DNA from: Timaviella obliquedivisa GSE-PSE-MK23-08B
GTDB lineage: Bacteria; Cyanobacteriota; Cyanobacteriia; Elainellales; Elainellaceae
Assembly (NCBI GenBank): GCA_019358855.1
Contig: JAHHII010000003.1
Coordinates: forward strand, 186,001 to 250,000
DNA length: 64,000 bases
Reading direction: 5' to 3'
The translations under genes were made by a program, and so were the position numbers. The notes below the pieces were generated by a model. The model was not told the origin of the DNA. It did no database searches and saw only the letters and a list, made by a program, of their open reading frames with translations. This document shows, one piece after another, positions 44,445 to 50,889 of the stretch. Position 1 is the first letter of the stretch; every line of letters begins with the position of its first letter.

Positions 44445-45011
44445 TCAGGCAATACCTCTTCCCCAGAAAGCGTCGTAGGGGGCTGTCAGTACCTCAACGG
44501 GTTTGCCGAGGCGATAAATTTCCACTTGCTGATCTTGAGGATTGAGTATCCACCCCAAACGCACCCCATTAGCGATATATTCCTGCATTTTCTGCTGCGC
44601 TTCCTCCAGATCATCAGTACGAGAACAGAGTTCTACTACAAAATCAGGAGCTATAGGGGGAAAGCGTTCCTTTTCTCTGGCAGTGAGGGTTTCCCAGCGA
44701 TCGCGCCTTATCCAGGCGGCATCAGGAGCGCGGGTTGCGCCATTGGGCAATTTAAATGCAGTAGACGAGTCAAATCCTAAGCCTGTTCCGTCTTCCTCAA
44801 CCCACAACCAAAGCTGTCCTAAAAGACTAAAATTACGATTCCCTGTCTCTCCCCCAGTTGGCGGCATAATAATTAGTTCTCCCTTTGCTGTTTGCTCAAA
44901 CTGGAGTGCTGTTTGCTCAAACTGGAGGTCTGGATTGTTCCGACAAAGTTCGTAAAACTGATCATCGGTGAGATCAATAGTCGGTTTCAAGCTCACAGTT
45001 AAGGCAGTCAT
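44445..45011 (-). CDS. Uma2-family (DUF820) putative endonuclease
   Basis: A 188-residue PD-(D/E)XK-fold protein of the family greatly expanded in cyanobacteria. Core features: LTDDQFYELCRNNPDLQFE, IIMPPTGGETGNRN, APDAAWIRRDRW and DFVVELCSRTDDL (acidic residues of the active site), GWILNPQDQQVEIYR. A 21-bp tandem duplication gives LQFEQTALQFEQTA near residues 30-43. Biological role unknown. Singleton. Confidence 0.85.
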   Translation of the reverse strand: MTALTVSLKPTIDLTDDQFYELCRNNPDLQFEQTALQFEQTAKGELIIMPPTGGETGNRNFSLLGQLWLWVEEDGTGLGFDSSTAFKLPNGATRAPDAAWIRRDRWETLTAREKERFPPIAPDFVVELCSRTDDLEEAQQKMQEYIANGVRLGWILNPQDQQVEIYRLGKPVEVLTAPYDAFWGRGIA

Positions 45012-48727: not shown

Positions 48728-49480
48728 CTAATTCCAGCGATCGATTACTTCTAGCATTTTTGCTTCGGATAAAAGGCTCTCTCCCCGAATTGCCTCTAAA
48801 ACCTCTGCAAAGCTTCTAAACTTTTGCTCAGGGTTTTTTTGTTTGAAAGCTTGCAGCTTTTGAACAATTTTTTGAGGCTTTTTGCCGCCTAAAAATGCAA
48901 TTTTACTGGTCGTGTCGCGGGCGATCGCGGGTTCTAAGATTCGATTAAAGGCTTCAAGTGGTAGAACAGACTGCGGAAGTTTTGTATCGCTCTCGTTTTT
49001 CTCATGAGCTTCTCTTTCTGTTGATAAATCGCGCTTTAGTTCTAGAAAATCAGCTTTAAGCTGATCAATCGCCTTAAGCATTTGCTCAGAAGTTTGCGTT
49101 ACTTGACCCTCTAGATTGCCTAGTTTAAGGTCTGTATCCCCAGAACCGCCCCCAGACACTTGACGAATTTTTTCTGTAACTTCTAGCTGACCGCGAATGT
49201 CATCCTCATTTTTGGCATCCATGATGAACACCATCAGTTGCTCAGGAAGTTCCTCATCTAATTCTCGTGCTTTGAGATACGCGTAGTAAGTCAAGTGTTC
49301 TGAAACAAGTTCGTATTCGTCAATGCCAAGCGATCGCACTACTGGAATATGAATCGAAGCTTCTAGATGCAAGATTTTCCGTGCTAAAGCTTCGATTTCT
49401 GTTGCGTGCGATTCGGGTTCAAAGTCAGAGTCAGGAACTCTAATACTCTCTAAGTCAACAATGGAAGTGAACAATGCCAT
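48728..49480 (-). CDS. Degenerate ParB-like protein, partner of the ParA-nuclease fusion
   Basis: A 250-residue protein. Residues 25-90 look like a ParB/Srx N-terminal domain: ATEIEALARKIL, IPVVRSLGIDEYELVSEHLTYYAYLKA, where standard ParB has PIVVRPxGxxYELVaGERRyrA; the arginine-rich box that binds CTP in true ParB is not conserved. A glycine linker (SGGGSGD), a coiled coil (about 120-165) and a C-terminal domain (FRSFAEVLEAIRGESLLSEAKMLEVIDRWN) follow. No obvious helix-turn-helix. It lies 59 bp downstream of the fusion gene on the same strand, probably one operon. Confidence 0.65.
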   Translation of the reverse strand: MALFTSIVDLESIRVPDSDFEPESHATEIEALARKILHLEASIHIPVVRSLGIDEYELVSEHLTYYAYLKARELDEELPEQLMVFIMDAKNEDDIRGQLEVTEKIRQVSGGGSGDTDLKLGNLEGQVTQTSEQMLKAIDQLKADFLELKRDLSTEREAHEKNESDTKLPQSVLPLEAFNRILEPAIARDTTSKIAFLGGKKPQKIVQKLQAFKQKNPEQKFRSFAEVLEAIRGESLLSEAKMLEVIDRWN

Positions 49481-49539
49481 AGACTAACACCTCGGAAATC
49501 TAGTTCTTTCTACTTGCCTCTCATTGTTCAGACAATAGT

Positions 49540-50889
49540 TCAAGATTGGATTAAGCTCAGCACTTCTTGTGCTAGTTCTTCAAACTCTTCTGCGGCTTGA
49601 GAATTTGGTTTGTAGTCCAAAATTGAGGTTGGATTCGGAATCTCCAAATCACCGATCTCTATAGACTGCTCCACGGCTGCGGACGTATCACGGCGCTCGA
49701 AAATTCTTGATTTAAGCAGTGAGAACCCATACTGTGAACTGACGATGGCTTCCATTTTTGGTAAAGTGTATTCTACAAACTTAGCGGCAGTGCTGATCTT
49801 AGAAGGCAGTACTCCTAATATTTCTAAAGCACTCCGACCCATCGACTCTCGAAACTCGTTAACATCAGTCACGAACCGCCATACATTCCGAAGTCCTTCA
49901 TTAGCAAAAGGGCGTAAATCAGAAGGAATGAGCAGATAATCTGCGGAAATCAGCGCAATTCGGGCATAGAGATTTAGGGATGGTGGTGTGTCAATTAAAA
50001 CAATATCGTAGGAGTTTTCTACATCTTTAAGCTTCTTAACCAAACGAGTTAATGCCGCTGGAAGTTGAATTAGCTCCTGCTCATGCTCCATGAAGTCAAT
50101 ATGGCTGGGAAGTACATCAAAAGGAGGAGTTGTAAAATCTGAGCGCCGGACAACTTCGTGAATCGGGAATTTGTTCTTCTCAACAATGACGTGATAGACG
50201 TAGTTACTTTTGATCGTATCGCTCAACTCGTCTTGGAACTTTACCAGCCCAGTTGCGAACGTAGTGTTTGCTTGGCTGTCCAAGTCAATTACTAGTACTC
50301 GCTTTTTCTGTTTACTTAAAGCGGCGGCTAGGTTAACGACCGTAGTAGTTTTGCCAACGCCACCTTTGTTGTGATAAATCGCGATCGTTTTCATGGGTTG
50401 CTTTTCCTGCTGTTTTGAAATGGGAAAATCTGAGGGCGAAGGCAGCGGCTTTTGCTGTAAAGCTTGTCTGCCAACTAATGCTTGTAGTTCATCAATTCGC
50501 TGAGGAACTTCCTGTCCTAAAATTTGTAGCCGTAGATGCAATCCTTCTGAGGTGCGCTCATAGATTCTGATTTGCCGACCGTTGGTTAACAAGCCATAAC
50601 GCACATTTAATTCATCAAGGTAACGGCGAAACTTCCGAACATGGTGCGACAGGTTTTGCTTAGGATGCTTTGCCTCAATGACGACCATCAGATGACCGTT
50701 CCAGCCGAACAGCGTGGAAGCAATCGCCAAAAAATCTAAGCGAATATTTTCAAACGTAACTTCTTGATGCCAAGTTTCCGGCGGGTAGCCTAAAGCAGGC
50801 AACAAATACTGAACAATAAATTTACTCTCAACCTCCGACTCATTTCTACAGTTCTCTGGATCATAGAAACTAGGCAAGGGTTGAAACAT
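49540..50889 (-). CDS. HsdR-N-type nuclease domain fused to a ParA ATPase
   Basis: A 449-residue two-domain protein. Residues 1-125 resemble the HsdR N-terminal (PD-(D/E)XK) nuclease module: helix with ESEVESKFIVQYLLPALGY, then D52 in IRLDFLA, and E72-A-K74 in LMVVIEAKHP, then GLLTNGRQIRIYER. Residues 166-449 are a ParA/Soj ATPase: deviant Walker A KGGVGKTTT (175-183), IDLDSQAN, Walker B-like IVLIDTPPSLN, and SADYLLIPSDLRPFANEGL. The hinge (about 140-165) is Gln/Lys/Pro-rich. ParA proteins move DNA or protein cargo; the nuclease-like domain might tag or cleave DNA, or might be inactive. Chromosomal context, no plasmid genes. Confidence 0.8.
   Translation of the reverse strand: MFQPLPSFYDPENCRNESEVESKFIVQYLLPALGYPPETWHQEVTFENIRLDFLAIASTLFGWNGHLMVVIEAKHPKQNLSHHVRKFRRYLDELNVRYGLLTNGRQIRIYERTSEGLHLRLQILGQEVPQRIDELQALVGRQALQQKPLPSPSDFPISKQQEKQPMKTIAIYHNKGGVGKTTTVVNLAAALSKQKKRVLVIDLDSQANTTFATGLVKFQDELSDTIKSNYVYHVIVEKNKFPIHEVVRRSDFTTPPFDVLPSHIDFMEHEQELIQLPAALTRLVKKLKDVENSYDIVLIDTPPSLNLYARIALISADYLLIPSDLRPFANEGLRNVWRFVTDVNEFRESMGRSALEILGVLPSKISTAAKFVEYTLPKMEAIVSSQYGFSLLKSRIFERRDTSAAVEQSIEIGDLEIPNPTSILDYKPNSQAAEEFEELAQEVLSLIQS

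Follow-up and report, generated by a model that had tools for sequence, protein, structure and literature searches.

A ParA ATPase joined to an HsdR-type nuclease domain and its ParB-fold partner: a putative DNA-cutting module of cyanobacterial chromosomes

Closest described systems

ParA ATPases are known for the positioning of plasmids, chromosomes, carboxysomes and chemoreceptors. The two-gene locus described here, found in a window of 64,000 nucleotides (the whole stretch of DNA that was analysed), resembles the ParABS systems (Soj-Spo0J, type Ia/Ib) in having a ParA with a deviant Walker A motif, encoded in an operon with a ParB-fold partner that is predicted to be a coiled-coil dimer. 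However, ParA here carries a nuclease domain, and its partner has a helix-hairpin-helix (HhH) domain, or in relatives a SAP/HeH domain, in place of the HTH. The partner also lacks both the GERRxRA box and the LG-R/K-GL motif, and near the pair in the window there is no convincing iteron or palindrome array of the parS kind.

The ParB fold is known in other company. PadC of Myxococcus is a ParB-like adaptor that recruits ParA to bactofilins (PMC5703909, PMC12704722). Like the partner, to which it is a structural match, it has a ParB-fold domain without HTH, which may serve as a ParA docking site; in contrast to PadC, the other end of the partner is predicted to bind DNA, and the ParA is fused to a nuclease. 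Kaljevic et al. 2025 surveyed ParB-CTPase-fold fusions (PMC12704722), which likewise recombine the ParB fold with other domains; consistent encoding with parA was found there for ParB-DUF3850 fusions only, and a nuclease-ParA with an HhH-bearing partner does not figure in that survey. With the N-terminal domain of HsdR from type I restriction (HSDR_N_2, PF13588) the fusion shares fold and active site, although ParA stands where HsdR has its SF2 motor, and neither hsdM nor hsdS is found among the ORFs at 44-56 kb of the window.

A further likeness is to ARMADA (PMC12458937) and BREX, since cyanobacterial ParA-partner pairs without the nuclease occur as parts of such operons. No ParA or ParB gene is mentioned in the text of the paper on ARMADA (PMC12458937), and the BREX survey of 2026 does not name ParA. 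Among open-licence papers we found no description of a nuclease-ParA with such a partner, and no model in PADLOC-DB 2.0 covers the two together; the fusion itself gave only partial matches in that database, to PDC-M28B (residues 159-204) and mad2. The pair looks like an undescribed device for the destruction of DNA, and the DNA that it would attack is probably invading DNA.

Architecture of the fusion and of its partner

The original prediction held that a nuclease-like module and a complete ParA share one reading frame, and this is borne out by the frame itself, by Pfam and by an AlphaFold2 (AF2) model (Table 1). That model, built on a 50-sequence alignment, has a mean pLDDT of 91.7 and a pTM of 0.77. 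Profile searches, which had been named as the check on both halves, gave AAA_31/ParA for residues 166-345 (4.7e-55). For residues 1-125 they gave two matches above cut-off: PF13588 (HSDR_N_2) at residues 24-113 (E 5.9e-7; 30.0 bits against a cut-off of 25) and PF04313 (HSDR_N) at residues 64-115 (27.1 bits against a curated cut-off of 25.1). When the AF2 model was compared by Foldseek, residues ~166-448 superposed on Soj with a TM of 0.91, normalised to 9a6n, and the ParA fold also matched McdA, with a TM of 0.81. The motif KGGVGKTT is invariant across 50 fused proteins, including those of the second family discussed below.

Table 1. Features of the two-gene locus (positions are those of the window)
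Feature	Position	Strand	Description	Basis
HSDR_N-ParA fusion gene	49540..50889	-	449 aa, single uninterrupted frame	
PD-(D/E)XK (HSDR_N_2-type) nuclease domain	50515..50889	-	residues 1-125; E17, E21, D52, E72, K74	Pfam, 50 homologues, AF2 topology
ParA/Soj ATPase domain	49543..50394	-	residues 166-449; deviant Walker A KGGVGKT (175-181)	
Partner gene	48728..49480	-	250 aa; separated by 59 bp from the fusion gene upstream of it; same strand	
ParB_N/Srx-fold domain of partner	49181..49480	-	residues 1-100, arginine box lost	family Pfam, profile search, Foldseek
Long coiled-coil helix of partner	48983..49135	-	residues 116-166	AF2 model
HhH DNA-binding domain of partner (predicted)	48734..48961	-	residues 174-249	family Pfam, pattern, AF2 helices

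In the model, residues 17-113 fold as a-b-b-b-a-b, which is the PD-(D/E)XK core (helix 17-32; strands 40-46, 49-56 and 68-73; helix 80-94; strands 98-102 and 106-113), with D52 in strand 2 and E72-x-K74 within strand 3 or at its end. The catalytic residues had been proposed to be E19/E21, D52 and E72-x-K74. D52, E72 and K74 stand and E21 is nearly invariant, but E19 is conserved in the closer fusion family only, and the invariant glutamate of the helix is E17. Among distinct close fused homologues E17, D52, E72 and K74 are identical in 33 of 33 and E21 in 32; in a larger set of 50 fused proteins, which takes in 13 members of the second family at 26-30% identity, the same four residues are invariant throughout and E21 nearly so. 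Free variation of the D/E/K residues, the outcome that would have spoken against a nuclease, is thus not what is seen. When the whole model was searched by Foldseek, the top 50 matches were all ParA with no nuclease structure among them, so that it is Pfam, the topology and the residues, not a structural match, on which we base the assignment of a nuclease fold. On these grounds we read the N-domain as being of nuclease type, with an active site that is complete and strictly conserved, and it presumably cleaves.

The partner of the window, taken alone, has no match in NCBIfam, PADLOC or the PDB and no significant match in Pfam; its family is more informative. Members match ParB_N (30 of 35) and HHH_6 (14 of 35), with DUF655 and HHH_3 among the further Pfam matches. 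The AF2 model (pLDDT 89.6) has an N-domain that Foldseek finds similar to ParB, Noc, PadC and sulfiredoxin, a 51-residue helix and a C-terminal five-helix bundle. The ParB-like N-domain of the original prediction is therefore upheld. It had further been called degenerate: the arginine box is indeed lost, but the loss is family-wide. ParB box II (GERRxRA) is replaced by GH-x-EYYAA in 48 partners and, because this holds throughout the family, the loss must be ancestral rather than decay in the window. By inspection, the LG-R/K-GL motif for ParA binding is absent from the partner N-termini.

What the original prediction missed is the C-terminal HhH domain. The family pattern at this end, LexFNxxsxxeLxxKLxxxGIxgKxAxxIxxxIxxeRxxxxFxSlxDVvxrVkGLgxkxMLxIIDxW, is one that we take, by recognition, to be a ComEA-like helix-hairpin-helix, and the HHH_6 and HHH_3 matches agree with this. 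The central HTH of ParB is absent, and the HhH domain, or SAP/HeH/Rho_N in the sister family, is found instead.

A separate observation concerns PDB 9k3a_B, where a ParB-like stretch (residues 1338-1404) of a 1717-aa protein annotated as a tail protein gives a stronger match to the partner profile (E 5e-8) than the ParB structures of cellular origin do.

Pairing, distribution and loss of the nuclease domain

That the two genes form one system, as had been proposed, can be stated plainly. A partner-seeded search of the class found the partner in 88 of 390 cyanobacterial species genomes and 51 of 160 genera, and a ParA adjoins it in all 30 loci that were fetched; reciprocally, a partner adjoins ParA in all 29 loci newly fetched by a ParA-seeded search. 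The order ParA-partner is kept in 59 of the 61 larger loci, where the two genes stand a median of 2 bp apart and often overlap by 4 bp, and of the two exceptions one stops at a contig edge and the other is a lone N-domain fragment. The neighbours beyond the pair vary almost everywhere. Fusion and partner are one conserved unit, obligatorily paired and co-occurring far beyond chance, which is single-copy and chromosomal.

A contig scan with an alignment matched 205 contigs, of which 80 were kept, all cyanobacterial, while the same scan with a single protein as query gave no match. The named carriers are, among others, Microcoleus, Nostoc, Oscillatoria, Fischerella, Chlorogloeopsis and Symploca. 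Searches of 72,556 plasmids and 50,697 phages did not turn up the pair; the matches to the fusion in these sets are to its ParA part, and at most one plasmid record covers 80% of it, at 25% identity. IMG/VR yielded no nuclease-ParA domain and no complete partner. It did yield a stand-alone partner N-domain of 101 aa with the ParB fold (L224:6001-6306), on a 55.8-kb contig with phage genes; it is up to 56% identical to cellular partners and is followed by a tiny coiled-coil frame. This viral N-domain could be a decoy against the pair.

A second, distant family of HSDR_N-ParA fusions (~450-530 aa) is present in 40 of 390 genomes (about 10%). A same-strand gene of 240-330 aa follows the fusion in 18 of 20 fetched loci; its products are ParB_N-like in 12 of 16 cases, have coiled coils and carry an HHH_3, Rho_N, HeH/LEM or SAP-like domain at their end. 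The N-domains of the two partner families are homologous (hhalign probability 96.5, E 8e-10). The likeness of the two families points to a common plan, in which a nuclease-ParA goes with a partner made of a ParB fold, a coiled coil and a DNA-binding domain without sequence specificity. The last element appears to be the constant one, because second-family partners end in domains, HhH or SAP/HeH/Rho_N, that are predicted to bind DNA in this way. In one genome (L117) both fusion families occur within about 3 kb of each other.

Further ParA genes were seen at some loci. At 10 of 37 fused loci (L068, L070-L073, L075, L082, L105, L106 and L116) a member of a second, divergent ParA family (~294-323 aa) is found no more than a few kb from the fused ParA, usually in opposite orientation; these copies are 50-84% identical to one another where compared. 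At L080:9330-11943 a nuclease-less and a fused ParA gene stand in tandem before one partner gene.

Loss of the nuclease domain has occurred at least five times. Eight changes of architecture are needed on a tree of 63 ParA domains, five of them forced by well-supported branches, and a single clade of nuclease-less ParA is rejected (p-AU 3e-36), the loss being polyphyletic. The fusion is likely ancestral because the outgroup family carries the fused form.

The nuclease-less pairs keep different company. Defence or helicase-nuclease contexts surround 9 of 19 nuclease-less loci against 0 of 37 fused ones (Fisher p 1.2e-5), a comparison which is counted by locus, owes its signal to no more than 2-3 contrasts that are phylogenetically independent (by a sign test, not significant) and takes its zero from nearest-gene PADLOC/Pfam scans and neighbour-family labels rather than from an exhaustive search. 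Five of the nine loci lie inside an array with a DrmD/DpdE-like helicase, a DrmMI/IIG methylase, variable cargo, the ParA-partner pair and then two helicases, one of the UvrD type, whose N-domain is ParE/RelE-like, and one that is DruE-like. In the cyanobacterial ARMADA-like arrays L087, L088, L092, L095 and L102 the cargo between methylase and UvrD helicase includes GmrSD, an OLD-like ATPase, a kinase and an unknown 1026-aa protein. The gene set of the array corresponds to ARMADA as described (PMC12458937), and of some 22 close ARMADA homologues only about 5, a quarter or so, have the pair adjacent. Two loci are BREX operons of the order PglZ-BrxL-ParA-partner, the pair lying directly behind BrxL and PglZ. 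At the remaining two (L084 and L085) the pair follows, by 14-36 bp, genes for a UvrD helicase and for a PDDEXK_1 nuclease that is a protein of its own, as judged from a family search on the L084 genes and from matching frame sizes in the same order in L085; in the tree these two pairs are among the nearest relatives of the window's pair after G233. One nuclease-less pair has upstream of it a gene for a 1118-aa Tubulin_2 protein (L089:5944-9300).

No defence operon was seen at the 37 fused loci, which have housekeeping neighbours, and a defence island around the window's locus or the other fused loci was rejected: PADLOC matches near them are no richer than in genes more than 5 kb away. Genes of ARMADA or BREX are absent from the window's own locus. 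A gene of 188 aa at 44445-45011 of the window is, by eye, presumably of the Uma2 type (putative restriction endonuclease), and a relative of it also adjoins BipA in a sister genome. A scan for promoters and terminators gave no more sites than shuffles did.

In four genomes (L034, L065, L091 and L121) the ParA gene is broken by a nonsense codon, frameshifts or fragmentation and the partner frame is intact, which suggests a system that is dispensable or costly. Programmed frameshifting at the break point shared by L034, L065 and L121 was considered and rejected, as the three lesions differ.

Possible function of the pair

Our tentative choice, in which our confidence stays somewhat short of even, is that the two proteins make up a DNA-cutting module of cyanobacterial chromosomes, switched by ATP, whose most likely use would be the removal of foreign or damaged DNA. 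The partner, as a coiled-coil dimer, would hold DNA of any sequence by means of its HhH domain, going by the domain type. Its ParB-fold N-domain would then dock ParA, by analogy with PadC, the usual ParA-binding motif being absent. An ATP-dependent sandwich dimer on DNA is established for the ParA family, and the motif residues for it are all present in the fusion; such an ATP-bound dimer may unite two PD-(D/E)XK domains so that DNA marked by the partner is cut, as the fusion and its invariant active site suggest. Hydrolysis of ATP resets ParA-family complexes, and here the partner would stimulate it. In nuclease-less lineages the steps up to dimer formation may serve to bring in or control the operon's own helicases and nucleases; a pair taken into a larger defence operon (ARMADA, BREX, or UvrD helicase and nuclease) would find its built-in nuclease redundant and lose it.

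We count in favour of the DNA-cutting module the invariant catalytic residues, the adjacency, the polyphyletic loss of the nuclease, the operon contexts and a pair-free BipA-psaC slot that holds other genes in two relatives. Two genomes of the same family keep the order psaC - 175-aa gene - BipA without the pair; the slot contains an unrelated 194-aa frame in L232 and, in L233, what we take by eye to be PIN/UPF0175 toxin-antitoxin-like genes. Against it we count that a nuclease which cuts without specificity would be a danger to its own cell and that no signal for telling self from non-self was seen, that the fused loci have housekeeping neighbours, that independent contrasts and ARMADA carriers are few, that PADLOC has no model, and that neither the fusion nor a complete partner has a copy in IMG/VR, phages or plasmids. 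The idea of an anti-phage or anti-plasmid role, present in the original prediction, gains indirectly from the nuclease-less relatives in ARMADA and BREX and loses from the fused loci, where defence genes are not enriched. As fused loci have housekeeping neighbours and PADLOC matches are equally rare near and far, we take defence to be the best reading but an unproven one. It is possible, if doubtful, that we are dealing with a categorically new mechanism of immunity or DNA surveillance, in which the ATP-driven dimerisation cycle of ParA, otherwise a positioning clock, switches on a fused nuclease on partner-coated DNA and which was repeatedly plugged, without its nuclease, into defence operons.

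The same housekeeping neighbours suit a nucleoid module that positions or resolves the polyploid chromosome, or acts in recombination and repair, its nuclease trimming entangled or broken DNA. In its favour, the fused pair is single-copy, chromosomal and next to core genes (BipA, NadA, pantothenate kinase and others), and the complete pair is absent from the plasmids and phages searched; the UvrD helicase and PDDEXK nuclease before some nuclease-less relatives could be repair-like, and Pfam detects no ParB_N protein in the genome from which the window comes. However, ParB_N proteins occur in 254 of 390 genomes of the class, and many carriers of the pair also have canonical ParB hits, so the pair neither strictly replaces ParB nor excludes it. 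The patchy distribution (88 of 390 species), contexts that differ almost everywhere, the embedding in ARMADA and BREX and the broken ParA genes of several carriers also speak against a nucleoid role, which we regard as unlikely but still worth serious attention.

An improbable variant is that the module is directed against plasmids, with the partner coating small or freshly entered DNA that the ParA-nuclease then destroys. The predicted DNA binding without sequence specificity, the kinship of the ParA with plasmid partition proteins and the zero copies on 72,556 plasmids would fit, but many carriers hold several ParB-like genes, some of them on small contigs that are possibly plasmids. The other reading of the original prediction, a relic of a plasmid partition locus whose HSDR_N-like domain binds DNA without cutting it, has the ParA/ParB-like gene order and the Soj-like fold on its side, but we reject it as very improbable: catalytic residues are invariant down to 26-30% identity, the partner lacks the HTH, the CTP-binding arginines and the ParA-binding motif, no parS-like array is near the pair in the window, and fusion and partner have no homologues on the plasmids searched. 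An ATPase of the McdA kind that positions non-DNA cargo is just as remote, for despite the fold match and the cyanobacterial setting a nuclease active site and a partner with an HhH/SAP domain make no sense for protein cargo, and no carboxysome gene lies beside the fused loci scanned.

To return to the DNA-cutting module: if this reading is true, the ParA cycle can gate the destruction of DNA as well. The pairs found in ARMADA and BREX operons offer a route to ask whether ParA/ParB-like modules are an overlooked component of immunity. The organisms concerned include bloom-forming Microcystis, Nostoc and Microcoleus, whose phages matter ecologically.
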